Source: Diphasiastrum complanatum (Eukaryota; Streptophyta; Lycopodiopsida; Lycopodiales; Lycopodiaceae). From it: DNA of 64,000 nt. The notes below the pieces were generated by a model, which saw only the letters and a program-made list of their open reading frames with translations, made no database searches and was not told the DNA's origin. The stretch spans positions 26,563,864 to 26,627,863 of the forward strand of contig CM055112.1 of the NCBI GenBank assembly GCA_029204225.1, written 5' to 3'. Positions 1,036 through 64,000 of the stretch are shown one piece after another (position 1 is the first letter of the stretch; each line of letters begins with the position of its first letter). The translations under genes and the position numbers were made by a program.

Positions 1036-1700
1036 TGAGATAGACTTTTATTGGTTCCCATTTTTCTGTACATAAAGACACTTCTGATGTACAATCTAGG
1101 GACTTGTTCGATATGTCAAAATACTATGTCAATAATGATGTATATATTACTACTACAGACCTATGTAATTTTTTTGAATATCGTGAAGAAGAAATATTAT
1201 GTCTCCTATCTAGCACCGTTTTGAAATTCTTGAATATCACAACTTTTGAGACTAGTCATGATATGGTGCATGGTATCGAATATGAAAAAGATGAAGAATT
1301 TCTTAGTGGTGATATATTGCTTGTCTTCATAAAGCCCAATATATTTTTTTTTCTTATTTTGAAATTACATGTAATGTTGAATTCTTTATAAACATGGTTA
1401 CTTGATACCTCTTCCCGATGTATGCGAACTACTCTTATTATAGATGAATTTAATGTTCATTGAGGAAGTATCGAAAAGCACTGAAACTCATTCCATGGGG
1501 ACAATGAACTGGGCCATTACCTCAAGCATTTATAAATAAAATAAAATATGTAAGTTCAATCCAATTGGGGAGACATTGATTATGGTCGTAAAGGCATTGT
1601 CACATTACTTAGGAGGGCATAAGTTTATTAGAGCAAATATATCCATTTTCATTCAGAGATCTCATGTTTTGAATATTTTAGGCTATGGACAAGAGAATGT
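1036..1700 (+). pseudogene. Protein X, remnant C
   Basis: Third copy of the protein found at 7686-9135 and 60855-62380. The N-terminal core DVYITTTDLCNFFEYREEEI aligns with SYISFNDIEYVLILREDEI of copy B and EYVFIHDLQHILGLREDEM of copy A. Further on, HYLKHL and MVVKALSHYLGGHK (about 1510-1640) match HYLKKF and MAIKSLSICLGGHK of copy B. The reading frame has several stops, and the conserved DAFxMRxGGVR block is not visible. No transposase or histone piece was found next to it. Function unknown. Confidence 0.6.
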
Positions 1701-2282
1701 TTCTATCTTGTTATTCATTATATGGTTCATATATACAATTAAATGGTAATCAAGACAATCCTCATCTCCTAGATCCATTTTCAAGTAGAGAATTTTGTCA
1801 TGATAACACAACAATTGGACATGATGAGAATTCTGATGAACTAAAATGATTTTTTTTAAAATTATCAACAATGTAATTTTTACATCAAAAAAGACTACAA
1901 AGTCTTTTGTGAATATTTCTAGCTATTTTCTTGTTATATAAACTTGCATGATTTTCTAAACTTCTTATAATATGAAGATTTGGTTATTTGTCGAACTTGA
2001 ACTCTTCGATAGAAAAAATAATTGAGAAATGTAGCTTCTTTTGTCACTGGTTCCTCCATATCAGTGATGGAATCTTACTCGTGCTTGTGATATTCCATGA
2101 CTAGACACTCAGACTTCCATATGTATTTGCAAAGAATGTTGTATGATCTCTCAAGATATGTTGGACGAAAAGAAAATGTAGTGTTAGACATTACGATAAG
2201 TAATTCAAGAAAGAAAGTTTATTTATAATTATTGACCATGCAATGTGTGATGTAATCTAGCTCTCATGATTTTAATTCTACA
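1701..2282. other. No gene recognised
   Basis: AT-rich spacer between X remnant C and the copia fragment. No ORF of note and no repeat match recognised. Confidence 0.4.
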
Positions 2283-3040: not shown

Positions 3041-3390
3041 TGTTATGTCCATGTCCAATATGTGGGATTCAGCATAATTTGGCATGGATAGCCGGTACTC
3101 TAGTGTATAGGTTGTTAGTTAAGCCACGTCATTCTGGGCTTGGCCGATAATGTAATTAATAATCTTATGAGGGTCCATGTACTCCAATTGGACCTATGGA
3201 GATTTTGCATGGCGTTTGATGGCTTTTATGTCTATTTTCTTATTTTAACCATGCATTTTGATTTGTACAAGTCATGAGCAGATTGAGACCCAACCTCATG
3301 ATGACACTTGGCATGCCTCTACTTGACTAGCCTTTTCCAGTTTCACATTGCTTTGAGAAACAAGCTATTCTAAAGCACGAATTGGCTAAT
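3041..3390 (+). mobile_element. 3' LTR start of the chromovirus
   Basis: Directly after the polypurine tract the sequence begins TGTTATGTCC, a usual start for plant gypsy LTRs. The right boundary is uncertain. Either the LTR continues to about 4255 (the stretch 3430-4255 has U3/R/U5-like character but no clear end), or it is interrupted at 3391 by the terminal inverted repeat of copy A. No second LTR is present for comparison. Confidence 0.55.
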
Positions 3391-3428
3391 GCATTAGGGC
3401 CCTTTTTGGACTCAAAAAGGGCCTCTTC
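3391..3428 (+). repeat. Candidate left terminal inverted repeat, copy A
   Basis: Identical over 38 of 38 bases to the reverse complement of 12433-12470. The motif is itself nearly palindromic (ggccctttttggactcaaaa, then agggcc), so it could also fold into a hairpin. A related sequence (aactcaaaaagggccctac) lies at about 22861-22880, next to transposase remnant D. Confidence 0.5.
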
Positions 3429-3732
3429 ACTAATTATAATTAGTGTTAATGACGACACGTGTCCCAATAAAATATTGACAACTGAGAGGGAATGGTCCAT
3501 ATGACATGGCAAATTCAATGGTGCAGATTAAATCAAGCGTGGGCCCACAAAGTACACCTCTAACATTAACCCTAGATAAAGCAATAACTATGCCTACAAG
3601 TTAACATCAACTAGCCTGTCTATCTACTAGCAGCCATATCCTCTAAGTGAGCCTAGTCCTTATTTCAAATTTTGAATGTTCACAAGCTTGTATCTCTCAT
3701 CTCTCTCTCATTTTGTAGTCTCTCTCTAAACG

Positions 3733-3794
<62 letters not shown>

Positions 3795-4279
3795 GTATAC
3801 TCCACAAATATTCTATTTTTTTTTTATTTTGGTTCACCTTATCTGAAGATCTACACACTATTTCGCATATCCTACAATATCATTACATCATCCATTATGG
3901 CCTCTACTCAATCAAGGAAGCCCAAGAATCAACTAGCTTCCATTGTTGCACACATCAAAGTCCTAACTAGATGGATGCAAACACATCACAACCAACTGGA
4001 TGATGCATTTGACGGTCTAATTGCTTAGTATTAATAGCTATTCATATTCTACATCTCAAGGATGAAGATCAATCATCAAGTATTCAGTAGTTAGCGTTCT
4101 CTCTCAAGTTTGCGAGCTTGGACACTCTTGAGCATTCTAGCTAATTTCGTTAGAGTTGATTAGAGATTGCTATTGCGCTTACTGCTTATTAGCATTGTGC
4201 TTGATTCAGACTTATTTTTAGTCGCTCAGAGATAGCTTAGAGTACGCCCCATACATTTTCAACTTTTGACTGAGTTTAC
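3429..4279 (+). other. Noncoding lead region with CT microsatellite
   Basis: Contains a perfect 16-bp palindrome (actaattataattagt) at about 3429-3445, a long CT tract and a short ORF from about 3897 (MASTQSRKPKNQLAS...) that I do not recognise. It may be the 5' noncoding end of copy A or the continuation of the chromovirus LTR. Confidence 0.4.
3735..3789. repeat. (CT)n microsatellite
   Basis: Uninterrupted CT dinucleotide repeat of about 55 bases, preceded by shorter CT-rich stretches. The overlapping Ser-Leu ORF is a by-product of the repeat. Confidence 0.95.
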
Positions 4280-5820
4280 ATGCAACCATCGGGCAAAGGA
4301 ACTCACAAGGTTGCAAAGAGGAAGTGAAACAACCAAGACTACCATTGGAAAGGAAGGATCCACGAATTCAAGATCGACCAAAACGGCGAAAACCTTGCAA
4401 ATGTGCAACACGTATACATGCGTCGAGATATTTTATTGGATGTGGTTGTTGCTGATAGAACCATGCAGTCACATTGTAGGTCTCACCTCTTTTATTCTTG
4501 TGTTAACTATTATGTTTGAATTATTATTATGTCATTGTTATGGATAATAATGTTGCATTAATGCCTGGTGCAGATGTCTTTCCTTCAAATAGCTTCGACT
4601 GGCAAAACGTGAAGTCCTTCACTGGAAAATTCTCCGCCATACACGCCAAATATGGAGAACTAATATATGGTGGGTTGGCATCATCTGCCCTGATCAAAAT
4701 GGGCATTTTCTTTTACGATCACATGTACGAAGTTCCAAAAAAAAACTTTGGCCAAGGCAAATTAGCACCAATTTCTGAGCCTGCGATCGATTCTCACGAG
4801 TGGCCATATGTTGACTAACTGACTATTGAATTAACGCAGAGGCAACTTCTCAAAGAGATTACTAGTAATATGAAGCCAACATTCGAATCCAAACGAGTCT
4901 ACACTAGCATCTCTGTGCCAATCACCGTATTTGTTGCCATATTTAAGGTGGTCCCCTTTAGAAAAACAAACACGATGTGGGCATGGAAAGCAACAGAATC
5001 ATCACTATTGGATAACATATTTGTCGCATGAGATTCAAAGGAAATGGAGCATAAAGGAGATTTAATAAGGTGTAAGCTCTTTTGTGAAACAATGACCATA
5101 AGGTATCATATTTCACGTCAAACATGCTCCTTAAGTTTCATCTATAGGTGATATAAGTTTGGTCATGGCCGATGGGACCCTCTGGATGCGGAGACGAATC
5201 AACAAGAAGTGGAGATATCCATACATTTGCCCCATGATGAAATACGAGAAATTCAAATAAATAAGGAGTGCAGCCTAGAAGATCTTCGGCATATGCTTGG
5301 ATTGACTTTTGTTGATGTGCCAATAGATTTTGTCTTTACTCGTAATGGACAAAATGTGAGTCCCTAATTTCCATCAGATTCCTGAATTTTAAATAGTAAT
5401 GTTGAGTAAATATAGGATTATTAACTTTGTGTTTGGTTTTGCATATACGGAGACGAGCCAAAAAAGATCATGAATGTGTTTCATTTTTACAAACAGGGAC
5501 ATTAGGAGTCCAATGGGAATAAAGGATTTAATCTAATGAAAAATAGAAAACACAATTAGTTGGTTGCGTTTTGACTCTATTCTAAAATATTTGGTTATGT
5601 TTTGACTTTAATTTTGCGTTGTCACATTTTATATGCCTGTTACTACATTTGTGGATGTCCAAGGTTGAACCTTGTTAAGGTTTAAATCGTTTAGTGATAT
5701 GCATTTTAATACTATTACTGGTTTTCTTTGAAGGTTTCCGCTAACTGGCAATTAGGATTTTCACTCATGAGCATAGACAAGAACATACTATATTTGAAAA
5801 AGAGGCCAAAACTTTTATAG
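4280..5820 (+). pseudogene. Gene Y: unrecognised three-exon gene, decayed
   Basis: My model joins 4280-4475, 4574-5355 and 5734-5820, with introns gtaggt...gtgcag and gtgagt...ttgaag. The joined length (1065 nt) stays in frame and ends at TAG 5818. About 355 codons are broken by four in-frame stops (about 4325, 4816, 5029, 5153), each explicable as C-to-T change in CGA or CAA. Recognisable stretches are FTGKFSAIHAKYGELIYGG, AIDSHEWPYVD, LTQRQLLKEITSNMKPT, NTMWAWKATESSLLDNI and, at the C-terminus, CSLEDLRHMLGLTF followed by DFVFTRNGQNVSANW. The last part could be a ubiquitin-like fold, but that is a guess. It sits 150 bp upstream of the histone-like gene in the same orientation. I do not recognise the family, and there is no counterpart in copy B. 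Confidence 0.55.
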
Positions 5821-5847
5821 GGGAACTTACTAGAAATAAAACCCTTC

Positions 5848-5858
5848 ACTATATAAGG
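5848..5858 (+). promoter_or_regulatory. TATA box of the histone-like gene
   Basis: cactatataaggg is a strong plant TATA box, about 115-130 bp upstream of the candidate start codons at 5972 and 5987. A nearly identical box (ctctatataag) lies upstream of protein X of copy A on the other strand, suggesting a shared promoter style within the element. Confidence 0.6.
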
Positions 5859-5971
5859 GTGCTTGGGTCTTCATTTCTCCACTTCATCCCTTGAGTGTCA
5901 GAGTGTCAGTTTTTTTAAATTCTCTGTTTTTCATCTCTCGTGTTCTCTGATACGTTTTCAAAGGCTAACCA

Positions 5972-7219
5972 ATGTTGGAGGAAATGACACGGACGAAACA
6001 AACGGCTAGAGATCCCAGAGTGACTGCATTGCTCCATAGGGATGCACTAGCCACCCTCGATGAGAGAGAGAGACGGGAGAGCAGAAGCAGGAGTAGGAGT
6101 CGCAGCCCTATAGCGTCTCGGGAAGATCCGGCCACTCAGTGTGAAGCTGAGGAGGACATGGCCCATACAGCAGCTACACAGGAGGACCAGACTGAGCAGC
6201 AGTAGCAAGAAGACCAGCAGCAGCAGGAGGACCAGCAGCAGCAACAACCACCATGAGAAAGAAGCCCTCTCCCGACGGCAACTGAGCGGGAGGAAACAAT
6301 GAAGTTCCTAGATGAGGAGCTTGCGGCATCGGGTGAGTTGCCGGTTCTGAATGATTCTTTCTTCGACCCATTTCCACCAGCAATGGGCATGGACACATCA
6401 AATTTAGGCATATTGGGGGACACCACACCCACCGTGTCACCTCCAAGTCACGGCCCGGTGATGGGTCCGATGATGTCGTTGTTGGTGGGTGGTTCTGATG
6501 AGGGCACTCCGATGTCGCACACAACAAGGATGAAGCAGAAGGCGATCCATAGATGGTCAGAGAGAGGAGCACACGAGCGAAAGAGAAAGAATCCTCGCAA
6601 GGCAGGCTCTACATGAAAGCGACGGAACCTTGCAGCTCAGCAGCCATCACCACTGCCCACACCGCCAACATCGCCTCCACCACCTCCACCTCCACTGCCT
6701 CCGCCCCCACCACTTCCACCACCTCCTCCACCAACACCTCCACCACCACCACCTCCACCACCTCCACCACCACCACCTCCACCTCCACCACCTCCACCGC
6801 CTCCAAGTTCTGCCGTAGTTGGCCCAAGTAGGACCGTAGAGCGTGGCAAGGGTAGGCCGGCCCCTCGTGCAGCACCATGGGCTGGAAAGGAGCTCCGCAG
6901 GATGCAGCCACCACCTCATCGATTGCGTAGAAAGCGCAGGATCGCAAAGTGGCTCCAGGATATACAGAGCTATCAGAAGTCCGTAAAATTTTTGATCCCT
7001 AGGGCCCCTTTTGTGAGGCTTGTAAAAGAAATAGTCGATGAATTTTCCTTGGGGAACAGAGTTACGGCAGATGCGGTGTCTGCAATACAAGAGTCTGCGG
7101 AAATATACCTAATGCAGCTCTTTGAGGACTCATTTTTGTGTGCAGTGCACGGGAAGAGAGTCACAATACTCCCAAAGGATCTCCACCTAGCTAGAAGGCT
7201 AAGGAGAGAGCGCAATTAA
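5972..7219 (+). pseudogene. CENH3/H3-like histone-fold protein with long linker (copy A)
   Basis: One reading frame of about 415 codons, broken only by three stops (TAG 6203, TGA 6254, TGA 6614), all explicable as CAG or CGA C-to-T changes. The N-terminus from the second Met (5987) is MTRTKQTAR, matching the H3 tail ARTKQTAR except at position 1. It is followed by an Arg-Ser repeat (about 6080-6110), a Gln-rich and acidic stretch, a basic segment (ERKRKNPRK), a long polyproline tract (about 6665-6810) and a C-terminal histone fold (about 6945-7210). The fold contains WLQDIQSYQKS, FLIPRAPFVRLVKEI, NRVTADAVSAIQESAE, LFEDSFLCAVHGKRVTI and PKDLHLARRL. LIPxAPF is typical of plant CENH3 (canonical H3 has LIRKLPF), whereas LFED is shared with canonical H3. 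Ordinary H3 and CENH3 have about 136-180 residues, so the roughly 280-residue linker is exceptional. The ancestral protein presumably joined nucleosomes, and the polyproline block in the antisense direction gives meaningless polyglycine ORFs. Confidence 0.8.
6660..6812 (+). repeat. Polyproline-coding CCx minisatellite
   Basis: Tract of (cca/cct/ccg) codons giving about 50 prolines, interrupted by a few Leu, Thr and Ser, inside the linker of the histone-like protein. It is in frame with both the tail and the histone fold. Purity at the codon level suggests triplet slippage. Confidence 0.9.
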
Positions 7220-7463
7220 AAATATCATGTACATGATTTTATTTATGATATACTGAAGATTTGGTGTCAAGTATCTTGCAGAATTTCAGATTATGTGAAT
7301 GCAAATTGTTGTGATTGAGTTTAATATCTGATTTCAGTATTGTTTATGTGAATGCTGTCATTTGAAAATTTTAGTACCATCTATGTGAATGCAGTGATTT
7401 AAAATTTTCAGTACTATGGAAATGGTAGTTTCTTTAACCATGTTGTAGCTAAGATAGGTTTCC
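7220..7463. repeat. Degenerate tandem repeats downstream of the histone-like gene
   Basis: Three to four imperfect copies of a roughly 50-bp unit with the core tatgtgaatgcagt...atttgaaaattttagtac (about 7290-7425) lie between the convergent histone-like and X genes. No ORF. They probably form the 3' noncoding region. Confidence 0.55.
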
Positions 7464-7562
7464 ATGTCGTGGCATGAAAATCACGCCAGGGCGCGACCAG
7501 GGGCCGTTTGACCTGGTCAAATGGGCCCTGGTCGCGCCCTGGTGTGAAAATCACGCCACGGA
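7464..7562. repeat. GC-rich long hairpin between convergent genes
   Basis: Arms 7486-7505 and 7523-7542 are inverted repeats (ccagggcgcgaccagg...) with one mismatch in 20. The inner loop pairs again (tttgacc / ggtcaaa). Outside the arms, tgaaaatcacgcca is repeated directly, and the outermost cgtggc / gccacg pair again. It is strongly GC-rich in an AT-rich setting and sits in the tail-to-tail gap between the histone-like gene (ends 7219) and X (ends 7686). It could be a small nested foldback element or a structure at transcript ends. Confidence 0.85.
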
Positions 7563-7685
7563 AAAAAGAAAAGAAATCTTTATTAGAAAAAAAATTTAAA
7601 TTCTAAATTCAATGAATAAGCACATCATATAATTACAACAGAGAATTAGGAGAGTCCTCAAGAAAAAAAATGACAAAATCTTTAT

Positions 7686-9135
7686 TCACATTTGATCCAT
7701 TTCCTTCAGAGAGGACTTCAGCTTCTCTGATCGCTTCTCTGATGACAGTACTGGTTTTAACATTTCTAATGCTAATTTAGGAGCATCTCCCTCATCCTCA
7801 TAAGGGTCGATTAAACCCGAGAGAATGAGCCAGGTCTCGAATCCAGGGCAGAAATCATTCAAAATGGCTTTTCGGAGGACACAGTAAGCCTTTGGCGTTG
7901 ACGGTGACAAGTCCACCTCACCAATGTGCTTGAGAGTGCTTTGCATTTAAGAAGCTCTGTCGGTCCATCTGGGCTGTACTTGTTGCTGAAGCAGAAAATA
8001 AAGTTGTTGGGCAAGTTCCCAATGTAGTGGGCCATAGACCTGTCCAGAGTTCCTGCTTCAACTTTCTTCCGAACGCCACCCCTTCGCATTGCAAATGCAT
8101 CAAGCTCCATTGCGTCCTACATTTGGTTCAAATTATTGCAAAATGAGTATAATGAAGACAAACAAACATAACAAACACACACAAGTTGAATTGTTGGGTC
8201 AGACTTGCCTCGGTCCCTTCATCAATGTCTTCGGTTTGCGCAAGGTCAATTCCTTTGCCTTTGTACTTCACGTCAGCAGTTTTCCCTTCGAGTACCTTGA
8301 ATGGCCTCGTTTGAACTGGTGGTGGTTGAAGCATTTTCAATTGACAAAGCACTCTTGCCAGTGCTTGCTCGGTGGTGTCCGTGTCATGCCCGATCAGCTT
8401 CTCATACGTGTCGTCGGGCTGGGTGTGGTCGAAAGTGAAACTGCCATTCTACAAATTTACCAATGCTGTCAACATCTCATCTTCTCGCAAGCCGAGAATA
8501 TGTTGCAAGTCATGTATGAACACATACTCCTTTCCATCAATGATGATTGGAGCAAGGCCATGTATTCGAAGCACGACATCATCGGACTCATCTATATCTT
8601 TTGGCTCCGCTGATGTGGATGCACTTATTGCCTCTTGCTCTGCAGATAAATCTTCCTCTTCACCTAGGTCGTTCATCTCGTTCACCTGCTCACTAGGATT
8701 GTGTTTGTTGCTAGCCACAGTCGCTGGAAATTCATTAAGCAAAAAAATAACAGTAATCTCACCGGATAGAAACTTCTTTCCTACACTTTTAAGATCAAAA
8801 GTTTTCAGCTGATCCTTGGTCAGCTCCAAGTAATGATCGTTACCCAAGTGACTAATAAATCTGTTGAGACGAGCGATAAAGGGTCTATCTCCTTTTCATA
8901 TATAACTAAGCAAGTTATATGGAATCCACATGATAGTGGAGCCAGGAATTTGTAGGGCATAAGGCTTCAAAGTTTCATCTATATACTCACTCACGTACGT
9001 GAATGCATCTGTATTAGCCCGTAGAGTGGCAAGCGTGTCTATTCTACCGGTAAACATACAATAAATACGATCTAACTAATCTAAAAACTCTGTGGGGGCT
9101 AGCAGATTGGCCAACTCTATTTTAGAGGACGACAT
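7686..9135 (-). pseudogene. Protein X, copy A
   Basis: Starts at ATG 9135 (MSSSKIELANLL...). The frame runs through NRFISHLGNDHYLELTKDQL, an acidic Ser/Glu-rich segment (about 8610-8700) and the core EYVFIHDLQHILGLREDEM. A Pro-rich segment and KVLEGKTADVKYKGKGID follow. Then a probable intron (about 8116-8210, acceptor ccaaatgtag) leads to DAMELDAFAMRRGGVRKK and HYIGNLPNNFIF. A frameshift near 7930 precedes the C-terminus with LILSGLIDPYEDEGD. Three in-frame stops (about 9074, 8898 and 8449) are visible. Copy B at 60855-62380 has the same layout, including an intron at the matching place and its own stop shortly after the LREDE core. No known domain is recognised. The recurrent association with the transposase points to an accessory role such as DNA or chromatin binding, which is inference. 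Confidence 0.65.
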
Positions 9136-9259
9136 TGTTATGCAACTAAGAACACTAATTGACCAGCAAACTAGTAGTCTAATTGAACAAGACAAGCTAA
9201 ATTACGAGGAAAGAAATTTCAACAAAGCAAGAAGTGACAACAAAATGAAAACCCCCACT

Positions 9260-9270
9260 CTTATATAGAG
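9260..9270 (-). promoter_or_regulatory. TATA box of protein X, copy A
   Basis: On the minus strand, ctctatataagagtggggg lies about 125 bp upstream of the X start codon at 9135. It matches the box before the histone-like gene at 5848. Confidence 0.55.
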
Positions 9271-9381
9271 GGACGTGTTTTCAAAAATAGATAAACAATT
9301 TTTATTTATAACAACAATCCAGTTCGACAGTATTATTTATCACAAAGGAATATTCGAATTACAATTCAACATGAATTGTTT

Positions 9382-12098
9382 CTATTCCATCTCATCAGTT
9401 TCCGTAGCTTCTCTAGCGCTGTTTTCCAAAACATTGGATGTTGGTGTCCTCGGCATCCATCTCTTTCCAACTCGGACTCTAGACATCCTCCATTCTTGAT
9501 GCCTTGTTCTAGCATTAAAGGATTGCCATGCTGTCTTTCTGACTGAATTTGAATTGGGGATCATTGAACACAACTCTTCAGTTCTTGTGTTTTGAAAGTG
9601 TCCTCGGCCCAAAACTCCTCTGTAAAACCATTGGAATATCTCAACCAATGCATTGCTACGACCGTTTCCTCCGCCATGCTGTGAATTTTTGAAATATGTA
9701 GCCTTTGCCCTGTAATGACTCTTTTCCATGCCTTGCGTATTCCAAATAGTTAATGATCCATAGGTTTTCATAAACCAAGGTCCATGAGCATAGAAGATGT
9801 GCTATTAATAGAAATTTCATATTAATTTAAATCTTTACAAATACATAAATACAAAAGTAAAAAATATGAGACACACATACCATATAGTGAGTTATGTGTG
9901 TTTCTCTCCATGCATCGATCATCAATTCAGTAATAATTTGACTTCTCTTGCGTATCTATCCAAATCTTCATCTTTCACAATTTTTTTGTTGATAGTTTGT
10001 GACAAGACATTAAATGCTTGCCAAACCTTAGCACATGTACTTGCCATGCGAGGATCTGAGCCAATATTTGTTGTGCATTGACATATTTTCTTCCAGTACT
10101 CCCATTCAACACTGTTTTTACGTGCAGTATGATTTGACAATAGGTGTCTCGCTTTTGCACCACCCATTGAAACTTTTGCTGGAAGATCTTGCGTTTTTCC
10201 ACTCATCTCAACGTCTTTGGTAAGACTCACGTGGCCCCCGTGCAATCCCATATCGGATAAAATTATCTCTAGATTTTTAATGCTAACATCTGCTCTTGAT
10301 TTGGGCTGCATGTTCCATGCGCAACAACAATGCGAAAATAATAATTTGTCCAGTATTCGTAATTCACCAAGCATTGTGCAAAAATGGACTCTTTCGAGAG
10401 GAATGTTCAGCACAAGTTTCCAGGCTTTGTCTAGATTGTGCCTATTTGGTGCAAGACGTTGGTTGCAATTCAAAATGCTTTTGTTCTGCCCAGATTCAAA
10501 CATATCATATATACAAAAATTCGTTGCATTTGCACCGAGACCACAATCGTACATGCATTTCAAAGTCTTCAAATCAGCAGCTAGGTGCCATTCTACAGCA
10601 AAGCTTTCTCCTTCAACATTGAGCAATTTGCCTTCATTTTGTGCATGTATTATCTTAGATATACTGCATTTTTCAAATAGCCACTCCAGTACGTCGTGAG
10701 ACTCCTTAGGAACTTCAAATGCAGCTATCCACCATATGTGATTTTCGGATTGCACGCTAAATTCTTTACAATAACTTCCGCCAAACTGTTGCAATTCACG
10801 TATCATCAAGGTGATTGTGACATGTTCAAGTTTATGCCCTTTTACGATTTCTGCTTCGTCCAACTTAATAACAAATATAACTTTACCTCTGCAAATCTGT
10901 AAAACAGAAATTTCATTACAAAAACATATTAGTTGAAGAAAAGCATACAATTGAAAACCGAAATCCACAATAAATGTTCTTACCATTTGTTCTAACTTCG
11001 TAATGTCGGATCATTATCGCTTGGACCTTTTCCAGATCTAAGAATATATTATTGCCTTGATGATAATTGTTTTGTCGGAGGTCCTTTCTTCTTATTGGTT
11101 ACTGTAAAAGAATCCTCAATATGTTGAAACTCTCCTAATTCAGAGAGCAAAATCGAATTGCATTCTCGTTTGGCGGATTCAACAAGTTTATAAGTAGGTA
11201 TTATTTGATGGCGTTTTAACCCAATTTTGTCAGAGCGTTTCATATATTTCTTCAAAGCTCTATACCCCTTGCGACTCACACCTCCTTGGTCACATGCGTA
11301 CACTATCTCTTTAACATTTGGATTTGGCTTGAACTTGTCGACTAGCTTTTTTGCAATTCTCAAGTGAATTGAATCACTTGTTTCATCTTCCACAATCTTA
11401 ATCAAATCTTTACCCTTCAAAAAATGTTTCATATATTTTTCGGCAATAAAATCTTTTCCAACCGTCTTTCTCAAGAACTCTTTTGTGTCCCTCATACGTC
11501 TTTTACTGGCACCACCACCTGGTGCCAAAGCTTCTAGTTTGTGTCTCTTAGGGTTTTCATTTTCTGCTTGCTGATCCATCGAGACTCTACGCTTTCGTTG
11601 TAAGCCATATATTGTCCTCTGAAATATACTGATTGAAGATTGCAATTCTTCAATTTTTGCGATAGAACTGGCAAGCTCTATTTTCAAACCATTTATCTCT
11701 TGCTCCAATTTCATATTTATTCCATGCAATGACTTTAAATTGTCATTCATACTCAAGATACGAATGAATGTCGTATTTGCCAATGTCTCAGCTTGGATTC
11801 TTCGAGAATCCATTGCTTGACAATAGCCAAGCAGTCCATTCCGACCATCTCCAACGAACCTTAACAAACTATGTACATTAGAAAATTTAGGAGGAGCATC
11901 TACCAGTGGATTATGAGGGTATAAATCACCTCTTACCCATAGGTCAATATGTTTTTTTCCTTCTAATCTCTAACAATGCATGTCATACGGATTTAAGTTA
12001 ACACCCCATGCAGCTTTGGTGGTCGCATAATCCTTCTCTAACTTCACATGTAAGTGATACATGTAAGTGAATTTCCCAAAAGAATCTATGTAGAACAT
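9382..12098 (-). pseudogene. DDE-like transposase candidate, copy A
   Basis: Exons 12098-10984, 10896-9881 and 9801-9382, with introns 10983-10897 (gtaaga...ttacag) and 9880-9802 (gtatgt...aatag). The N-terminus is MFYIDSFGKFTYMYHLHVKL, followed by a coiled coil (about 11780-11640), a basic segment (KRRMRDTKEFLRK) and ACDQGGVSRKGYRALKKYMK. The middle exon carries IFVIKLDEAEIVKGHKLE, FSVQSENHIWWIAAF, FAVEWHLAADLKTLKCMY, IPLERVHFCTMLGELRI and MGGAKARHLLSNHT. The C-terminus has WNTQGMEKSHYRA. The DLKTLK Asp and the GMEKSH Glu are plausible catalytic acids of an RNase H-fold DDE enzyme. One stop (about 11972) and small frameshifts (near 11070 and 9925) are present. Copies at 62410-64000 and 23271-23790 are homologous. 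It is not hAT, Mutator, PIF or CACTA by its motifs. Confidence 0.65.
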
Positions 12099-12432
12099 TA
12101 CAATATACCTTAATCAAATGGTGTCAAAGCTCAATGTGAACTAACAATGATATAAGCTTTATTAGGCATATACTAGTTTCCATCCCTAGGGTCCTATTGT
12201 AGTTAGGACAATGAAAGGTCGTCCTATACTAACCCTACTCTAGTTGTAATTTGTAACTTACCTATTACTTGCCTATTATAGTCTATGCAAATAACCTACA
12301 ATAGTCTATGAAAAGGAGACCTACATTTAGGCCTTAACTCTTGCTCACCTTGTATGGTAACCCAAGGTAAAGGTGCCATGTAGGATTGATTAGCACTAAA
12401 TTAATTATGATTAGAAAACTTGTTTAGGCAAG
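12099..12432. other. Subterminal noncoding region, copy A right end
   Basis: AT-rich sequence between the transposase start and the right inverted repeat. Next to the repeat it shares a short block with the left end (ctaatcataattaatttagtgctaat on the minus strand). No ORF. Confidence 0.45.
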
Positions 12433-12470
12433 GAAGAGGCCCTTTTTGAGTCCAAAAAGGGCCCTAATGC
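12433..12470 (-). repeat. Candidate right terminal inverted repeat, copy A
   Basis: Exact reverse complement of 3391-3428. It lies 335 bp beyond the transposase start codon, a typical position for a transposon end. Confidence 0.5.
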
Positions 12471-12977
12471 AAATGTGATCTGCATATGTACATCAAAATG
12501 TATGTTCAAGATCCATTTTAGGGTTCTTCTATTTGTGTTAGTACTTTCATCATTCATGCAATAGTGCAAGTGCTCTTGTCAAACATTGTGTCATATGTGT
12601 TTATGCAATCACTTGGGTTGTAGATACTTCAAAGTAGATGAATGTTTTTCATTTTCTTTCACATTTATTACCCTGCACATTTATATCCTTAAATGAAAGC
12701 ATAATTTTTCTAGTACATTTGATGTTCCACATTCTAAACATGGAGTGTAGATATGATATATATGTCCGTCCTTTCAAAATATCCTCCATTGTTAATTAAG
12801 ATTCTTCACCCACAAATATACATCTTCAAAATTTACCTTTAAGATTAATCACCTGTATACTTTAGAGTTCAATGTATTAACTAAAACACTCAAACCTTAT
12901 GGTTATGTCATATTTCAAAATATCACTACGTATATTCCCTCCCTATGGCATATAGGTTTTCCTTGTCAAGGAAAAAT
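12471..12977. other. No gene recognised
   Basis: AT-rich noncoding sequence without notable ORFs or repeats. Confidence 0.45.
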
Positions 12978-23270: not shown

Positions 23271-23790
23271 TTGTCCAATTTTGAAATAATGGAAAAGTTT
23301 GATCTTCATATTGTACCACCAAAGCTAGTGAGAGTAATGAGACCTATAAGAAAGAATTACAAAATATTTGAAGGAGAAGTCCATGGAAACTTAATATTGG
23401 CTATTAAACTTGATGAGTCTGAAATTGTTAAGGGACAAAAATTGGAATGGGTAAATATCATCTTTATGAACAAAGCATTAAAAAATATTGAAAATGTTGC
23501 AGAGGATTCATCATTTAGTGTTCAATCAGAGAATGAAATATGGTGGTTAGCAGCATTTTAGGTATATTTCAATTTTATTTATTATTGTTTACCAGAATGC
23601 TATGATTTTTTTATCCCCTAAGTTTGCTAATGTCAATGTTCAGGTTTTAAAAGAAGACCATGCTATCTTGTCGTGGATTTTTTCGACAACAACTTATGCG
23701 AAGATTATTGAAGAGCACATGGGTGGAAACAAAATATTTGTGCCAAACTATGGCACGTTTCAAATTTTATGGCATCTTGCAAGTGATTAA
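23271..23790 (+). pseudogene. DDE-like transposase candidate, remnant D
   Basis: The first exon reads LILAIKLDESEIVKGQKLEW and FSVQSENEIWWLAAF. The intron is 23562-23643 (gtatat...gttcag). The next exon reads VLKEDHAILSWIF and FQILWHLASD, then stops just where copies A and B continue with LKTLKCMY. The intron sits exactly where copy B has one (63598-63691). The exon-end codon is TAG where copy B has CAG, a C-to-T nonsense change. The ORF at 22988-23176 upstream may be a further decayed part. The rest of the gene is cut off by an LTR element. Confidence 0.7.
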
Positions 23791-23799
23791 AAAACACTG

Positions 23800-37853: not shown

Positions 37854-38830
37854 CTCCCTCTTCAACTAGTTTTAGCATAGACTTTGATAATACTCCAAGT
37901 GAAGTCCTATGCTTCATGAACAAGTCTTTTCCCAATGCTTTGGTGAAGATATCAGCTACACATTCCCTTGAAGACACATGTTGAAGCTCTACCTCCTTTG
38001 CAATGACTTGCTCTCTCACAAAATGATATTGTATCTCAATATGCTTGCTCCTAGCATAGTTTTTGACAATAGAACTTTGATCCATCATAAGAATGATCTT
38101 CTTCCTAAGAATAGATCTCCTTTCAATGATCATGTAATGCTCAAAATAGAAACAACCATAATTGATATAGAGAATAGTGTCCACTTGGGATGCTTCACTA
38201 TTTCTTACATCAATTTTACATATCAAGATGTAACTAGAACATGAAGAATCAATTAGAATGTAAATGAAATAATTCCACCATGCTTCCAACTTTGACCTCT
38301 CTGGAAAAATACAGCAAACAAACAATAAATGTGAGTGATCAACTTTTGCTTGCATGTCTCCTCCTTCTTTGTCCTTTGTTGCCATGTATCCACCATGATA
38401 CTCCATGAATGAGCTTCCATCTCCATCTTGCCAAAAGATGCCATCAAGCCTTGATGACTTGGCCATGAATGAGTGACATAATGAGCCTCCAATATCTTCA
38501 TTTTCATCAGCAAAACCAGCCAAGAATTCTAGTACTAACCCAACATCAAAACAATGCTCACCAATGTAGTTAGTTTTATCATATCTTGACAATTTGTTTA
38601 CATCCACATGAAATTGCTCAAACATGAGATAGAACAAGTAAAGTAAACTTGAACAACACTTCCTTGCTGCTCCTTTGACCTTACTTGAGTCTTCAGTATG
38701 CTGTAAAAATAGATCCATAATACCTTTGCCAATTACCTCTCCTTTGATGCTCTTGACTAGTTCCAAATTGCCAACTTCCCTTTTGACTAGTTGAAGCGCT
38801 TTGAGATCAACCTCTTGATCAACAACTTAA
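37854..38830 (-). CDS. copia-1 RNase H end fused to unrelated 0.8-kb segment
   Basis: One open frame of 305 codons. Its last part (about 38070-37858) is the copia RNase H C-terminus: ARSKHIEIQYHFVREQV, VADIFTKALGKDLF. The upstream 200 codons (for instance YIGEHCFDVGLVLEFLAGF, MATKDKEGGDMQAKVDHSHL) resemble no RT or RNase H. They occupy the place where the YVDD-containing RT should be. The fill-in could be captured gene sequence or scrambled retroelement DNA. Confidence 0.5.
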
Positions 38831-38834
38831 TCAT

Positions 38835-41102
38835 CAAAGTCATTGAACAAAATTTGTTTTCCAGATCCAATACTTGATTTCACAACAAGATAACATCCAC
38901 CCACTTGCATAGCTCCATGTACACAAGATGATCCTCCAAAAGATGTTCCACTCTTCATAAGAGCTTGATACTTGAGATGGCATTGCTTGGATCCACTCCT
39001 CTTCTTTCCTTGCTTGATCTACATTTGTAGGCTCATCCAAAGAGGTTAGGAAAGCAGCATAATTTTCAGAAACTACTTGCTTACCCTTTTGATCATATGT
39101 GAGCCTTGAAGGTAATTGTCTTTCTCTTGATGTTCTCCTTGGCTTTTGACTTGATGAAGGTCCATCATCACCACCATCCAAAGTATGATCCTTCTCATCA
39201 ACATCGAGAATGTTAGATCCATCCACTCTACCATCAATCATGCTTGAAGACACCTTTGGAATGTTCCCCTCATAAAAAATGACATCTCTATCAGCAATCA
39301 CTTTGTTAGTAGAAGGAATGTAAACCTTGTAGGCTTTACTCACCTCACTATATCCAACAAAAATACCTCTTCTTGAAGATGGATCCTCCTTGGTCCTATC
39401 ATCAAGAGTAATGTTGACATAGCATGTGCATCCAAAGGTTCTTAGAAAGTTGACACTCGGCCTCCTCTTGAATAGCATCTCAAAAGGTATCCTTCCATCC
39501 AAAATAGCACTCGACCACCTATTGCACAAGAAATTGGCACACAACAAAGCTTGATCCCAAAATGGTTTGTCAAGATTAGCACTTAACCTCATAGCTTTAG
39601 CACTTTCACATAAAGTCTTATTCTTCCTTTCAGCCACTCCATTTTGTTGTGGGGTCCTTGATATTGTATACTCCCTCTTGATCCCAAACTCATCACAAAA
39701 GGCCTTGAACTTGTTAGATATGTACTCACCACCATTGTCACCTCTCAAGCACTTGATCTTTGTGGAAAATTGGTTCTCCCTTGCATTCTTGAACTTGATA
39801 AAGACATCATTCACTTCATCCTTGCTATTTAGTCATGATAGATCCAACAAAATCTACTAAAATCATCAATGAATGTTACATACATATTAGCTCCACTATT
39901 GCTAATTGTAGTAAATCCATGAATATTCGAATGTACAAGTTGAGAAGGCTTTGTAGATTTAGATATAGATCTAGTATAGGGTACTCTATGTGACTTGGAC
40001 AAAGCACAAGACTCACAAACATGTTTGATGCCACTTAAGGAACTTGGAAGACCTATCACAATCTTCTTCCTAGCCATTACCTCCAATGACTTGAAGTTGA
40101 GGTGTCCCATCCTTTTATGCCAAACCTCTTGAATAGGTATTTGCTCCCTTGAGACACATCCAACTTGGTTAGCAATAACACAAGCATCTAGTTTGAACAA
40201 CTTCCCTTGACTTTTACCTTTTCCAACCAAGACATCCTTCCTTTTGATCAAACAAGCATCTCCATCAAACTCCAACTTGAGGCCTTGCTTAGCATTTGAC
40301 TCACACTAAGCAAATTCTTGGTAATAGATGGAATAAACAAGACTTCCTCCAAATAAAAATTCCTATTTTTAGAGAGAGCAATAGGAATTGTGCCAATCCC
40401 TTTGAGTGCACACTCACCATCATTGGCCGTGTAGATCACCCTCTTGTCATCTCCATATGCCAACAAAGAAGTGAAGTACTCTCTATGAAAGGTCATGTGT
40501 GAACTTACTCCACTATCAATCCACCAAGGATCTAGATCTCCATCATTAGCAAACATACATGAAGACATCACGAAAGCATCATTATTTGCATTTGAATAGA
40601 AATACTTGGAACAATGTTAGCATGGGCATCCAACAACCCATTAAGAATCACTTGAATAAGCTCTCCTTCCTTAATGTTTTCATCAATGCAAGCCAACTCA
40701 TCATTCAATGCTTTCATCCTCAAAACAAAAGTACTTGGACTTTCTTCATTCTTTTGCAAAAAAGAAAAAATTTGCCTTCTTAGAGTCAACACTCTAGAAG
40801 TAGACTTGGACTTTATAAAGCTTCTTCAATGAATTCCAAGCTTCCAAAGATGATGTGCACTTACCAACTTCCTTGCGAAGTTCATTGGTAACATTCATTT
40901 TTATCATGTGTAGAGCCTTCTTGGCCCTCTTGTCATACCTCAATTGATCTTGTTGTGTTGCTGGTCTCTCCTCCAAACCTACAACAATATCCAGAACATC
41001 ATTCATCTCAAGAAGTGACTCCATCCTCACTTTCCACAATGAATAGTTACTTGAGGTAAGCCTATCATTGGCTTCCAACATGACTCCAATTGAGGTTGCC
41101 AT
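38835..41102 (-). pseudogene. copia-1 gag-protease-integrase, frameshifted
   Basis: Gag begins MATSIGVMLEANDRLTSSNY (41102), with SLEAWNSLKKLY and FVLRMKALNDELACIDENIK. The gag end and zinc knuckle are deleted. Protease has DPWWIDSGVSSHMTF (D-S-G). GAG-pre-integrase has VWHKRMGHLNFKSLE and CESCALSKSHRVPY. The integrase core reads VHSNIHG (the usual catalytic Asp is Asn), FIDDFSRFCWIYHD (then a frameshift), RGDNGGEYIS and QNGVAERKNKTL. The C-terminal part has RTFGCTCYVNI and RRGIFVGYSE. The reading frame ends in a scrambled region near 38840. Confidence 0.85.
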
Positions 41103-41690
41103 CTAGCAATGACTTGATCTTCTCTTTCAACCTGCTTCAATGCACAAAGCACTCCTTTGAACAACAACAAATGCTTTCAAAAGAAATCACCAAGATTTGA
41201 AACTATCTCACAAATTCTCTTCTAGTACTTATCCAAGCAAATCAACACATAGAATCATGGAATCTTGATCAACCTATGATCTATCCTCAATCTAATGACT
41301 TTTGCCACTTCCTAAGATTGAAACACACTCAAATGAAGTCTAGAAACCTCACTATCTAGAGATCCAATCAAAATTAGGGTTTTGACAAAATCACAAAAAA
41401 TTGAGTATTCCAAATCTACATGCAAATGCTGAAAATTTGATATGCAATCTATAAGCCACCACTTAGGCTGAACCAATGATCCGAAAATCGGCCAAATCCA
41501 GTATGTGAATTCAAAAATCGGAATTGAACAAGTATATTGACCTATTTAGTGTTTTGATCTACAAAATATCCAATCTACAAAAGCAAAAAATCCGATTTTG
41601 GTGTAGAATCCTCTCTAGCATGCTCTAGACTCGATATCTTCACCAAATCATTGATAGATCTGATTTCCTCCTTCATAAACTGAAACACAA
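41103..41690 (-). other. copia-1 5' leader
   Basis: Noncoding leader between primer-binding site and gag. The same leader occurs in copia-2 (50437-50976). Confidence 0.7.
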
Positions 41691-41702
41691 GCTCTGATAC
41701 CA
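41691..41702 (-). promoter_or_regulatory. Primer-binding site of copia-1 (initiator-Met tRNA)
   Basis: Minus strand tggtatcagagc, immediately after the 5' LTR. Confidence 0.92.
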
Positions 41703-42352: not shown

Positions 42353-42357
42353 ATATG

Positions 42358-47250: not shown

Positions 47251-47267
47251 GAGCGGCAACGACGCCA
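47251..47267 (-). promoter_or_regulatory. gypsy-2 primer-binding site
   Basis: Minus strand tggcgtcgttgccgctc, one base from the common gypsy site TGGCGCCGTTGCCG, one base after LTR end ...ccaaca. Confidence 0.7.
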
Positions 47268-47268
47268 A

Positions 47269-58455: not shown

Positions 58456-58701
58456 TTATGTTTTTATTTGAAATTCTGGGGAACTCATATTTATAGGGGT
58501 AGGAGGAGACAAAGATTTTGAAGGAGGAGGAGATTTATTAGGAGAGGAAGAATTAGCAGGAGAAGATAAAAATGGAGTTCTGGGAGGAGAAGAAGGAGAC
58601 TTAGGAGAAGACATGGGAGGAGATTGTCTGGCAGATAGAATCTCATCTAGAGGAGATGGCTTTGAAAAATCCCTCGCTTTATTAGGAGAGTCATGAGACA
58701 T
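58456..58701 (-). CDS. Small Ser/Pro-rich ORF next to the histone fold
   Basis: 81 codons from ATG 58701: SPNKARDFSKPSPLDEIL, then repeated SPPxSPxSPP-type and KSP motifs. A TATA-like catatatagagtggg lies only about 20-35 bp upstream on the minus strand, similar in wording to the X promoter of copy A. It follows the histone fold of copy B (stop at 58723). It may be a separate product, or the displaced counterpart of the proline-rich linker in copy A. No membrane or signal sequence. Low complexity makes homology judgement unreliable. Confidence 0.4.
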   Translation of the reverse strand: MSHDSPNKARDFSKPSPLDEILSARQSPPMSSPKSPSSPPRTPFLSSPANSSSPNKSPPPSKSLSPPTPINMSSPEFQIKT

Positions 58702-58722
58702 CTTCTTTGAAACACTCCCACT

Positions 58723-59120
58723 CTATATATGAAAAACAAGCCGGGATGGTTGATTTTGCTTTTGTTTTCTCCTCTCAAAATCTTGTTTAGGAGGAGAGGA
58801 AGGAGCAGGTCTAAAGTACTCTGCAAATTTGTCATATGTGTCCCGTAGCCTGAACACAATGTTGAAATCCTTAAGCATGATGGTCACCCTTTTGGCATGG
58901 ACAGCTGCAACAATAGTATCTGAAAACAATTTCACTTGGAAATCTTCATATGCAGTGTGCAACGCCTCTATTGCCGTTACAGTCCATCTCACAACTTTTT
59001 GTAACCTGTCTGATGGATCTCTGTATGTGAGCTTTCGGAATCAGAAGATTATTGGTCTTCTCTAGCTTCCGAATATCCTTGAGCCAAGGTGGGTCTCTTC
59101 TCCAATGCCCCTTGGCCTTT
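58723..59120 (-). pseudogene. CENH3-like histone fold, copy B
   Basis: Minus strand: PPWLKDIRKLEKTNN, LLIPKAHIQRSIRQV, then after a one-base frameshift near 59000 VVRWTVTAIEALHTAYEDF, QVKLFSDTIVAAVHAKRVTI and LKDFNIVFRLRD. This covers helix N, loop 1 and helices 1-3 of an H3 fold. LLIPxA, RWT at the start of helix 2, LFSD and KDF are CENH3-type choices; canonical H3 has LLIRKLP, RFQ, LFED and KDI. A C-terminal extension (YDKFAEYFRPAPSSPPKQDF, then ERRKQKQNQPSR) follows the fold. The H3-like tail and polyproline linker of copy A were not found upstream. It diverges strongly from copy A, so the two copies are old relatives. Decayed, with at least one stop or frameshift. Confidence 0.75.
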
Positions 59121-60854: not shown

Positions 60855-62380
60855 ATGGCTAGTTCCTCCATGTCCTCAAATAACAAACTTCTGGATTTTT
60901 TGAATGCTAATGACATTCCATTTGAGAAATTAGAGTATTTTGTGAGAATTTTTTTGCTCCCTTCGATATCGATAAGCTAATTTATGAAAATCGTTATAAT
61001 TTATTTTCTTATCTTGATCATTTTTCTCAGATTATTAGTACTCTTGTTTTGGATATAAATAGTTTTTGTTTCGTTCATTTTCAGGATCTTGTGCATTCTA
61101 AACCATCTTCTAAGCATAAACACAATAGAAATTACTCTAACCTGCATGACCATTTCAAAAGAAATATATATTGTGATATCCACAAAAGAATATGTCGCCT
61201 TCTCATCAAAGGAATGGCTTTTGTCTTTTACATATCTGCTGAAATTCCAGATGATGAATCTGTTAAATCTTCAACTGTTCCATTGATCGAAGCATCTGCA
61301 CCTGTTCCAATTGATGTAGATGATGCAGATACTGATAGCATCTATGGCTTCATATTATCAAAAAACTCTCCCGCGTTCTATAATCCTCTTTGATTCTCTT
61401 CCATCTGCATCTCATGTTAATCAATTAACTCTACTCAATGTTCCCTTATATTTTATAAATAATGAAAGTTATATTTCATTTAATGATATAGAATATGTTT
61501 TGATTTTGAGAGAGGATGAAATCCTCTCAATTTTTGCTCAAAATTTATCAGAATTTTCTGGCATTGTTGATTACACATATGATGACCTTGAAATTGAGAT
61601 AGATTATGATAAAGATGGCAATTGAAAATCTGGCAATGAGGCCTTGGAGGTCATGATTGAAAAATCTAAAGCCTATGAAAAAACTTTGCCTACAGAAGAG
61701 GAATTTTTGGAATTCCAAAAAAAATATCCCCCAAGGCCTAGATATATTTCCTCCAGAAATGTAGAGGCCATTGGAGGACATGACATTAGTAGAGCAAACA
61801 TCGTTGAATATAATGATTATAATCCGGTACGTAAATATTATATTGGTATTGATATTGCTTAGTTTTCTTATTTCAAACACTGCGTTAAAGTATGAGTTTA
61901 CAGTGTTATGTATCATTCTAAATTTTTTTTTTTTTTTGTACAAGATGCTATTGAAATAGATGCCTTTGGTATGAGACATGGAGGCGTCCGAGGTGTATCA
62001 GTCGGGAGAAAGGATGTGTCTGTATCTCATTATTTGAAAAAATTTCAAAATAATGAGATTTGTATATATCATTCATCTTTTAATCCATATGCAACCACTG
62101 TCATTATGGCCATCAAATCATTATCAATTTGTTTAGGAGGCCATAAGTACGCAAAAGGAACATATAAAATAATTTTTGTAAAAGGGATTTGGCTATTAAA
62201 ATATTCGGTTATACTCCCAATGAGACTACAAAAAGATCATCTGCAATGGCCCTTTATTTGGGTTACATTGATATGAGCAAAAGGAAAAATTTAGAATTTT
62301 TGGATCCATATGAAAGGAGATTATTCCTTCATGACAATACCATTCGTCTGAATCTTGAAGAGGATGATGGTGATAAATAG
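60855..62380 (+). pseudogene. Protein X, copy B
   Basis: ATG 60855 gives MASSSMSSNNKLLDFLNAND, parallel to MSSSKIELANLL of copy A. A frameshift in a T run (about 60950) leads to FAPFDIDKLIYENRYNLFSY. Later come the acidic stretch, SYISFNDIEYVLILREDEI (about 61465-61525) and FSGIVDYTYDDLEIEIDYD, then a TGA stop. Next are EEFLEFQKKYPPRPRYISSR and an intron (61828-61943, gtacgt...tacaag). Then IEIDAFGMRHGGVRGVSVGR, HYLKKFQNNEICIYH and MAIKSLSICLGGHKYAKGTY follow. After a frameshift, IFGYTPNETTKRSSAMALYL and EFLDPYERRLFLHDNT end at TAG 62378. It is convergent with the transposase, whose stop lies about 30 bp away. The conserved blocks are those listed for copy A. Function unknown. Confidence 0.65.
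61828..61943 (+). other. Intron of protein X, copy B
   Basis: Donor gtacgt, acceptor after a T-rich tract (tttttgtacaag), just before the codons for DAIEIDAFG. Copy A has an acceptor (ccaaatgtag) before DAMELDAFA at the same protein position, showing a conserved intron. Confidence 0.65.
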
Positions 62381-62409: not shown

Positions 62410-64000
62410 TTACAAGGATCTCTCTTTTGTTATGAATTTGAATGCCTTTCGAAATATCGTAATACTTGGCAAGTTTTTAGCTTGATATCTAAATTGTGCT
62501 CTTCTATAAAACCACTGAAAAAGTTGAACTAAATATTTATTTCTTGAATTGTGTCCTACATGATTTGTTGCTCTATGAAATGCTCCCCTTGCTTGCCAAT
62601 GAGATTTTTCTATGTCTTGTGATGACCAGATACTTAAGCTCTCATATTCCTTTGAAAAATAAGTTGCATGATGAAGAAGGATGTGTTGCAAACAATAGTT
62701 TTGATTAGTTACATCAGTAGAAAAAATATAAGCCTGAATGAGAAAAGTACCAGATAATGATATAGATTAGCAGCATGTAAAGAGTAACGTTGTCTTTTCC
62801 CCAACAATCATGTACAAATTTTACAAATGTGGAGCAATGATTTTGCAAAGTCCTCATGTCTTCTGATGATAGGTTTTCTTTCTTGATAACACCTATGAGT
62901 TTGTCTAAGTTGGTCCACACTTGTTCCTTTTCCACTCGATTACTTCCTTCCAGTGTTCGTGTGACTTGAACAATTTCTCTCCAAATTTCGTATCTGACAC
63001 TTGATTCTTTGCATGTGTGATTGGATAAGAATCTTCTTGCTTTAGCACCTCCAATTGATGGGTTATTAGGAACGTTTCCTTTTTTCTCGGAAAGTCTATC
63101 ACTTTTTTCAATCATGGCATTCCCTTTATGTAGTCCTGCATTTGACAGAACTATTTTCAACCTCCTAATTGTTGCTTTAGCCACAGACTCCGGTTTATGA
63201 TTCCATGCTAGTAGAATATGTAGGTAAATAAGTTTTTCAATAATACGAACATCATCATGCAATGTGCATATGTGAACATTTTTTAATGGAATTGGCAGAA
63301 CACTTTTCATATTTGGATCTTTAGCTTCTCGTGTTGGGCCAGTGTTTGTTGATTGTCCCGAATTCATATTGTAGCAATCCTTCATGCAATAAAGACATGG
63401 ATGCTTTGATGTTGCCCCATGAGAAACATTATACATACATTTTAATGTTTTCAAATCCCCTGCAAGGTGCCATTGAATTTGAAAACTTCCATGGTTTTCA
63501 ACTGTAAATTTCTCACCCTCCAATGTCACTTTATAATCTCGCCATAATTTGTTCTTGAAAATATCCATGTAAGCATTTTATGGTCCTCTTTCAAGAGCTG
63601 TAGAGAAGCAAGTAATGCATGACATGTCAATAAAACTGGCAAGGTATAAATTGTTAATAACGACATTCTAAATGAAAATTGAAATGTATACCTGGAATGC
63701 CGCCAACCACCATATGTGATTTTTCGATTGAACACTAAATCTTCGATCATTTGTATATGAAATTTTGTTCATCAAAGTGACACTCACTTGTTCCAACTTT
63801 TGACCCTTGATGATTTCAGATTCATCCAATTTTATTACAATAATGATCTTTCCATCTACTTGATGTTCGTCTAGTTTATAAAATCGAATAATGTATTTTA
63901 GAACATTTTCAATTTCAAGAAAAATATAATTGCAATCGTTGTAATTGAGCTCACCATATTCTAATTTGTATAATTCAGTTATATGAAGTGGTTGGCCAAC
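62410..64000 (-). pseudogene. DDE-like transposase candidate, copy B (runs off window)
   Basis: Minus strand from the window edge: LNYNDCNYIFLEIENVLKYI, IIIVIKLDESEIIKGQKLEQ and FSVQSKNHIWWLAAFQ. Then intron 63691-63598 (gtatac...ctacag), LLKEDHKMLTWIF, FQIQWHLAGDLKTLKCMY, CLYCMKDCYNMNSGQS, IPLKNVHICTLHDDVRIIEK and IGGAKARRFLSNHTCKES. After a degenerate intron near 62700, YESLSIWSSQDIEKSHWQAR and YLVQLFQWFYRRAQF follow. CLYC suggests a zinc-binding pair after the DLKTLK Asp. The last intron lacks GT and AG here but is intact in copy A. The N-terminal coiled-coil part lies beyond the window. Confidence 0.68.
63598..63691 (-). other. Transposase intron, copy B
   Basis: gtatac...ctacag between AAFQ and LLKEDH. 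Present at the same place in remnant D (23562-23643), absent in copy A, which instead has an intron at 10897-10983 that copy B lacks. Confidence 0.7.

Follow-up and report, generated by a model that had tools for sequence, protein, structure and literature searches.

A four-gene transposon with inverted terminal repeats

We analyzed a 64,000-nucleotide (nt) stretch of the Diphasiastrum complanatum genome (contig CM055112.1, positions 26,563,864 to 26,627,863; hereafter, the window), which contains a DNA transposon bearing a histone H3-like gene of its own. A preliminary description of the window had recorded two clusters, each made up of a histone fold, a protein termed X, and a large transposase-like protein. 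That observation was borne out: the first cluster (copy A) lies between two 39-nt inverted repeats without a mismatch (3390-3428 and 12433-12471), and its histone fold, transposase, and X protein match those of the second cluster (copy B).

Copy A as a whole spans 3392..12469 (9078 bp), as delimited by the perfect inverted repeats and by a boundary CA common to other copies. The terminal inverted repeats, recognized from their match to each other and from the ends of other copies, lie at 3392..3428 on the histone side (+ strand) and at 12433..12469 on the transposase side (- strand), and contain a hairpin with 11-bp arms (GGCCCTTTTTG/CAAAAAGGGCC). The termini read 5'-CATTAGGGCCC...GGGCCCTAATG-3'. 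Other loci of the element in the host genome (given L-numbers here) share these ends, a point that the preliminary description had proposed to check. The common sequence starts with CATTAGGGCCC in 20 of 20 ends, which had been picked by exact match to a 30-base end pattern, and the boundary CA is present in 11 of 12 loci with a recognizable end, the exception being L021, which has TA. Outside the ends the sequence varies between copies, apart from three shared flanks (A/L002, L083/L092, and L088/L089). Because CA is shared among copies and the sequence beyond it is variable, we place the element at 3392-12469, with 5'-CA..TG-3' termini. L002 (C21:26713111) lies 139 kb from copy A in inverted orientation, and the 15 bases beyond its transposase-side end are identical to those of copy A, indicating that the flank was copied together with the element.

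Four genes run inward from the two ends, N and the histone gene from the left (+ strand) and the transposase and X genes from the right (- strand). Gene N (~4510..5368), delineated by frame translation and by the open stretch in L069, is broken by stops. The histone gene (5972..7219), identified by fold searches and by its open relatives in L042 and L068, is a single 415-codon frame that encodes an H3-type tail, a long linker, and an H3 fold; it has three in-frame stops (6203, 6254, and 6614). Gene X (~7680..9134), recognized from its similarity to other copies, has two exons and is likewise interrupted by stops, and the transposase gene (9382..12062), drawn from comparison with relatives and from their fold, contains introns and is disrupted by one stop and two frame changes. 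Thus, all four genes of copy A are broken. The preliminary description had proposed to look for intact copies; elsewhere in the genome, individual genes have open frames, namely N (L069, 212 codons), X (L033, 364 codons between stops), and the histone (417 codons in L042 and 440 in L068, between stops), and long open pieces of the transposase gene are present in other copies. The N protein had no match in PDB and none above the cut-off in Pfam, and the X protein had no Pfam match above the cut-off and no protein-database match at an E value of ≤0.01. Comparison with NCBIfam gave nothing near a curated cut-off. A near-perfect palindrome with 46-bp arms (85%) lies at 7468-7560, in the gap separating the end of the histone gene from that of X.

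Recurrence across the host genome

Genome-wide counts refer to the host assembly of 1,744,706,496 bases in 5176 contigs. Allowing up to 3 mismatches, the 30-base end pattern occurs 1000 + 991 times, and a reversed control pattern occurs 0 + 0 times. We scored 113 transposase, 150 X, and 150 histone loci; these lists hold the best-scored places and so favor close relatives of copy A, and all are lower bounds, histone matches exceeding 150. Listed transposase places are found on every contig from C1 to C24.

The genes keep a fixed geometry at these places. X lies ~1.5 to 2.1 kb downstream of the transposase on the same strand at 67 of the 113 transposase places, the histone lies 2.0 to 8.1 kb downstream on the opposite strand at 47, and both partners are present at 32. 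Viewed from X, a histone lies downstream on the other strand at 79 of 150 places, in 62 of these at a distance near 1.75 kb. Every other relative placement of the three genes was seen once or never. Within 8.5 kb, 47 transposase-histone neighbors in the fixed placement compare with 0.17 expected at random from the same lists. Co-occurrence is thus far beyond chance and the three families are not simply scattered, although for 54 of the 150 listed histone places neither a transposase nor an X is listed within 9 kb. Together with the shared ends, the fixed geometry upholds the proposal that histone, X, and transposase belong to one DNA transposon family.

Target-site duplications were read by eye at eight end pairs (A, L010/L070, L024/L072, L076/77, L078/79, L080/81, L082/83, and L084/85). 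Only L076/77 has a 3-bp duplication (AAT), L084/85 has a 2-bp duplication (TC), and the other six pairs have none of 2 bp or more. TGCA was considered as a 4-bp duplication of copy A and dropped, its CA being element sequence. No end was found near the predicted place in L071, L073, L074, and L075, nor in L069, which has a copia-like stretch close to where the transposase-side end would be expected. Because some different elements share one flank, duplications or recombination between copies disturb this test. The two ends of L076/77 (C1:67871298-67872433) face each other 1.1 kb apart, and this pair is probably a nonautonomous relative.

A transposase with a RAG1-type fold

The transposase appears, by model and motif, to be of the DDE type with a RAG1/Transib fold. 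Two AlphaFold models of its relatives matched only RAG1, BbRAGL, and Transib in PDB at an E value of ≤0.001. The catalytic residues D1 and D2 are present in 14 of 14 transposase sequences and a C-x2-C motif in 13 (the exception is the database relative P0013; P-numbers denote such protein relatives), and the three sequences that have the C-terminal part also contain H-x4-H and the catalytic E. Both the C-x2-C and H-x4-H motifs are placed between the second D and the E. In copy A itself, C-x2-C is missing its second Cys (CIYD) and VHxCTLH its final His (VHFCTML). No Pfam transposase family was matched at an E value of ≤1 by the open reading frames of the window or by seven relatives scanned, and none of the 14 relatives carries a precomputed domain. 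No occurrence was confirmed in IMG/VR viral contigs, and there was none in phage records.

An H3-type histone lacking the K9 and K27 contexts

The fold of the copy A histone (6617-7216, + strand) matched the Pfam Histone family at 1.6e-28. In PDB, plant H3.1 came first (4.5e-28), and the 60 best of 178 matches were all H3s or H3 variants. The majority fold of the family is 57% identical to plant H3.1, has the canonical length with no gap at loop 1, and aligns better to H3.1 (score, 255) than to P0015 (score, 240). As judged by these searches and by loop length against PDB H3s and P0015, the copy A histone is of the H3 rather than the CENH3 type, and the centromere-type label that the preliminary description had attached to it does not hold for this copy.

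P0015 was the only long relative of the copy A fold (252 residues; E value, 1.4e-20) in a search of 5.8 billion proteins under a length filter, because of which ordinary 136-residue H3s were not candidates. It is an uninterrupted histone with a Ser/Arg-rich tail and a lengthened, CENH3-like loop 1, and has LIPR, HGxRVT, and KDLHLARRLR in common with the element histone.

The majority tail begins ARTKQTAR, with D-P in place of K9-S10; tails of single copies vary, that of copy A being TRTKQTARD. Within a sample of 30 loci, 26 of which had a readable tail (near-duplicates included), K4 and R8 were each kept in 25 of 26 copies; at position 9, 24 copies had D and the other two had G. R2 (18 copies), T3 (21), and A7 (20) were more variable. 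The element histone therefore has neither the K9 nor the K27 context, since position 9 is Asp and the K27 segment is absent. Between tail and fold lies a linker of ~300 residues that is acidic and Gln-, Ser/Arg-, and Pro-rich.

Selection on the histone fold

Six diverged copies match the whole 97-codon fold (L096, L098, L099, L101, L102, and L103), with synonymous divergence (dS) of 0.43 to 1.23. In five of the six comparisons, the ratio of nonsynonymous to synonymous substitution rates (dN/dS) was 0.10 to 0.17 (dS, 0.49 to 1.23), including 0.13 for L101, beside which an X is listed; L103 gave 0.27. These values argue for purifying selection on the fold during its time inside the element, a conclusion that is supported but not closed.

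The 30 loci of the young family differ by a median of 4.5%, and of 222 deviations from the majority sequence, 159 are C>T or G>A. In the shared/single contrast within this family, two transposase pieces gave 0.24/0.75 and 1.04/0.75 and an X piece gave 0.19/0.52, none of them significant at 0.05.

Other copies and neighbors in the window

Copy B (58.4-64 kb) is strongly diverged and arranged unlike copy A, in the order histone (-), X (+), and transposase (-). Its CENH3/H3-like histone (58495..59101, - strand; Pfam and PDB searches) has one frame change and a Pro/Ser-rich C-terminal tail. The fold (58726-59040, - strand) matched Pfam Histone at 1.4e-10, and its best PDB match was fission-yeast Cnp1 at 2.3e-9, with H3 variants close behind at 6.7e-9 and 1.2e-8, so that the copy B fold may be of either type. 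Gene X (60857..62380, + strand) and the transposase (62413..64000, - strand, cut by the window end) were recognized by similarity to copy A: the transposases are 40% identical over 226 residues (E value, 8e-49) and 46% over 61 residues of the C-terminal part, and the X proteins are 42% identical over 65 residues (E value, 3e-11). The copy B transposase has the D, D, E, C-x2-C, and H-x4-H motifs.

Two further remnants were found. Copy C (1.1-2.2 kb), arranged like copy B, retains part of X (1083..1647, + strand; E values, 9e-8 and 2e-6) and of the transposase C terminus (1922..2166, - strand; E value, 1e-4), and copy D retains part of the transposase (23301..23799, + strand; E values, 1.6e-21 and 3.5e-5). 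Several decayed copia- and gypsy-like frames occupy 38000-52000, among them, on the - strand, two copia-like copies that closely resemble each other (~38.8-41.1 and 48.3-50.4 kb).

A possible role of the histone in resisting silencing

The element structure, copy number, gene co-occurrence, transposase fold (by model and motif), and H3 tail and fold were observed directly. We somewhat favor the view that copy A represents, in decayed form, a large transposon family with terminal inverted repeats and four genes, encoding a RAG1/Transib-fold DDE transposase, X, N, and an H3 variant of the element's own. The H3K9me/DNA-methylation loop silences plant transposons. The element-encoded H3 would pair with host H4 and be laid on element DNA; it keeps K4 and would be unmethylatable at K9, where it has Asp, and at K27, whose segment is absent, and for that reason the element's chromatin would resist silencing by H3K9me and DNA methylation. 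A kept fold combined with a tail lacking K9 and K27 suggests a nucleosome component that could not be marked for silencing. That the protein acts in this way on element DNA, as an anti-silencing nucleosome protein, we put forward tentatively, as less likely than not. The transposon itself would move by cut-and-paste, the usual reading of a RAG1-type DDE transposase fold. The combined proposal, in which a lineage with the RAG1 fold carries a dedicated, K4-keeping but K9/K27-unmethylatable H3 that dresses its own DNA or its transposition complex and thereby defeats silencing, is possible but rather unlikely as a whole.

Several results weigh against this interpretation. Target-site duplications are inconsistent among the eight end pairs. 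The link to RAG1 rests on models with a mean predicted local distance difference test score (pLDDT) of 58, and the transposase sequence profile did not find RAG1 in PDB. Of the six low-dN/dS histones of diverged copies, L101 alone has an X listed in its neighborhood; for the other five (L096, L098, L099, L102, and L103), neither a transposase nor an X is listed within 9 kb, although missing listed neighbors are no proof of solitude, because the lists favor close relatives of copy A. In four more copies (L097, L100, L104, and L105), indels break the frame match within the fold, and dN/dS is 0.41 to 1.05; five close copies gave 0.27 to 0.58 at a dS of 0.06 to 0.12. Finally, the shared/single contrast in the young family was not significant for the fold (0.40/0.68; p = 0.28), the linker (0.60/1.01; p = 0.053), or the tail (0.80/0.63; p = 0.54).

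Other explanations have to be set beside it. RAG2, the partner of RAG1, has a PHD finger that reads H3K4me3. By analogy, the histone might serve transposition, its tail mimic on a flexible linker tethering the complex to K4-methyl readers or the protein shaping the DNA of a synaptic complex. The RAG1-type fold of the transposase models, the near-constancy of K4 and R8 (each in 25 of 26 tails), and the fact that the histone travels with the transposase all fit such a cofactor, but no RAG2-like partner is evident, X and N being without a Pfam match above the cut-off, and we regard this explanation as unlikely. It is also improbable, in our view, that the element repeatedly captured an unusual host H3 gene, with the low dN/dS reflecting selection on the host gene. 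In its favor, neither a transposase nor an X is listed within 9 kb of five of the six histones with low dN/dS, and the different strand and position of histones A and B relative to X and the transposase are compatible with two captures; moreover, the comparison of the element histones covered PDB H3s and P0015. Against it stand L101, with its X alongside and a dN/dS of 0.13, and the nearly constant X-histone distance (62 of 79 near 1.75 kb among listed places), which makes one gain the simpler account of the A-type family.

We consider it very unlikely that the histone is a captured, functionless passenger amplified inside an active copy. A Helentron has captured histone gene fragments, according to the available portion of the published account (PMC4067079), and the selection signal within the young family is weak and nonsignificant. 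However, a passenger fits poorly with a dN/dS of 0.10 to 0.17 at a dS of 0.49 to 1.23 in five comparisons (four of them for copies without a listed neighbor), with open frames of 417 and 440 codons, and with the presence of a histone in the diverged copy B as well. Equally doubtful is the suggestion that the histone is a CENH3 allowing the element to target centromeric chromatin or persist there. Copy B does have Cnp1 as its best PDB match, and P0015, the one long relative of the A fold, has the longer CENH3-like loop 1, but the copy A fold finds plant H3.1 first, has no loop-1 insertion, and follows an H3-type tail, and listed transposase places are spread over each of C1 to C24.

If the element does encode a conserved histone of its own, the question of whether a selfish element alters its own chromatin with a private histone becomes testable in one plant. 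The transposase lineage, not covered by any Pfam family, would form an additional branch close to the origin of the antibody recombinase, and the many occurrences of the end pattern (1000 + 991) offer material for dating, expression, and insertion studies.

Comparison with known systems

Published systems are compared here as they appear in the available portions of the accounts cited. The transposase resembles those of Transib, ProtoRAG, and RAG1 in its modeled fold and in its D-D-E, C-x2-C, and H-x4-H motifs, and convergent genes within an element with terminal inverted repeats recall the RAG1L-RAG2L pair (PMC7204232). Unlike in Transib, there is no CAC-type terminal heptamer, the ends being CATTAGGG in 20 of 20 picked ends, and a 5-bp target-site duplication was seen in 0 of 8 end pairs. 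It also differs from RAG-like transposons in its partner genes (X, N, and the histone) and in having no sequence-profile match to RAG1. ESTA families, described from fungi, share the C(2)C and H(3-4)H motifs, the similarity to RAG1, and 5'-CA..TG-3' termini, and some members bear epigenetic cargo genes, there TET/JBP and here a histone (Kojima 2025, PMC12730594); the TA target-site duplication of ESTA was found in 0 of 8 end pairs. With plant CACTA/EnSpm elements, the transposon has in common a broad DDE motif group and CA..TG ends, but these ends are CATTAGGG rather than CACTA, no Pfam transposase is matched, and a 3-bp duplication occurs in 1 of 8 pairs.

By its motif set (C(2)C and H(3-4)H) and CA..TG termini, the transposase is, as far as sequence can place it, a member of the broad CMCT group of Kojima (PMC12730594). 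The 2- to 5-bp target-site duplication of that group compares with 3 bp in one pair, 2 bp in one, and none in six of the eight read by eye here. Because neither the termini nor the inconstant target duplication agrees with the published descriptions of Transib, EnSpm/CACTA, or ESTA (PMC12730594, PMC4411706, PMC7204232), we call it a new lineage with a RAG1-type fold, set apart from these three.

The preliminary description knew of no described plant transposon family encoding a histone H3 or CENH3 relative, and in mostly open literature, represented in part by excerpts, we likewise found neither a report of a transposon whose histone gene is intact nor a plant RAG1-like or Transib element; a review of gene capture by plant transposons (PMC13317346) does not contain the word 'histone.' The one case of histone sequence inside a mobile element was Helentron-Cq-32A of Culex, a rolling-circle element whose eight copies carry broken H4 and H1-type fragments, with no sign of function in the accessible part of that report (PMC4067079). 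This suggests that the present family is undescribed, as far as searches of mostly open literature reach.

Transposons are known to carry epigenetic writers and erasers (SET and TET/JBP) and anti-silencing factors such as VANC (PMC12730594). Arabidopsis VANDAL elements offer the likeness of a plant DNA transposon with a protein that counters silencing, although VANC is a sequence-specific anti-silencing protein and not a histone (PMC5735166, PMC10398659). If our interpretation is correct, a conserved histone of the transposon's own would be a different strategy, one that acts directly on the nucleosome.

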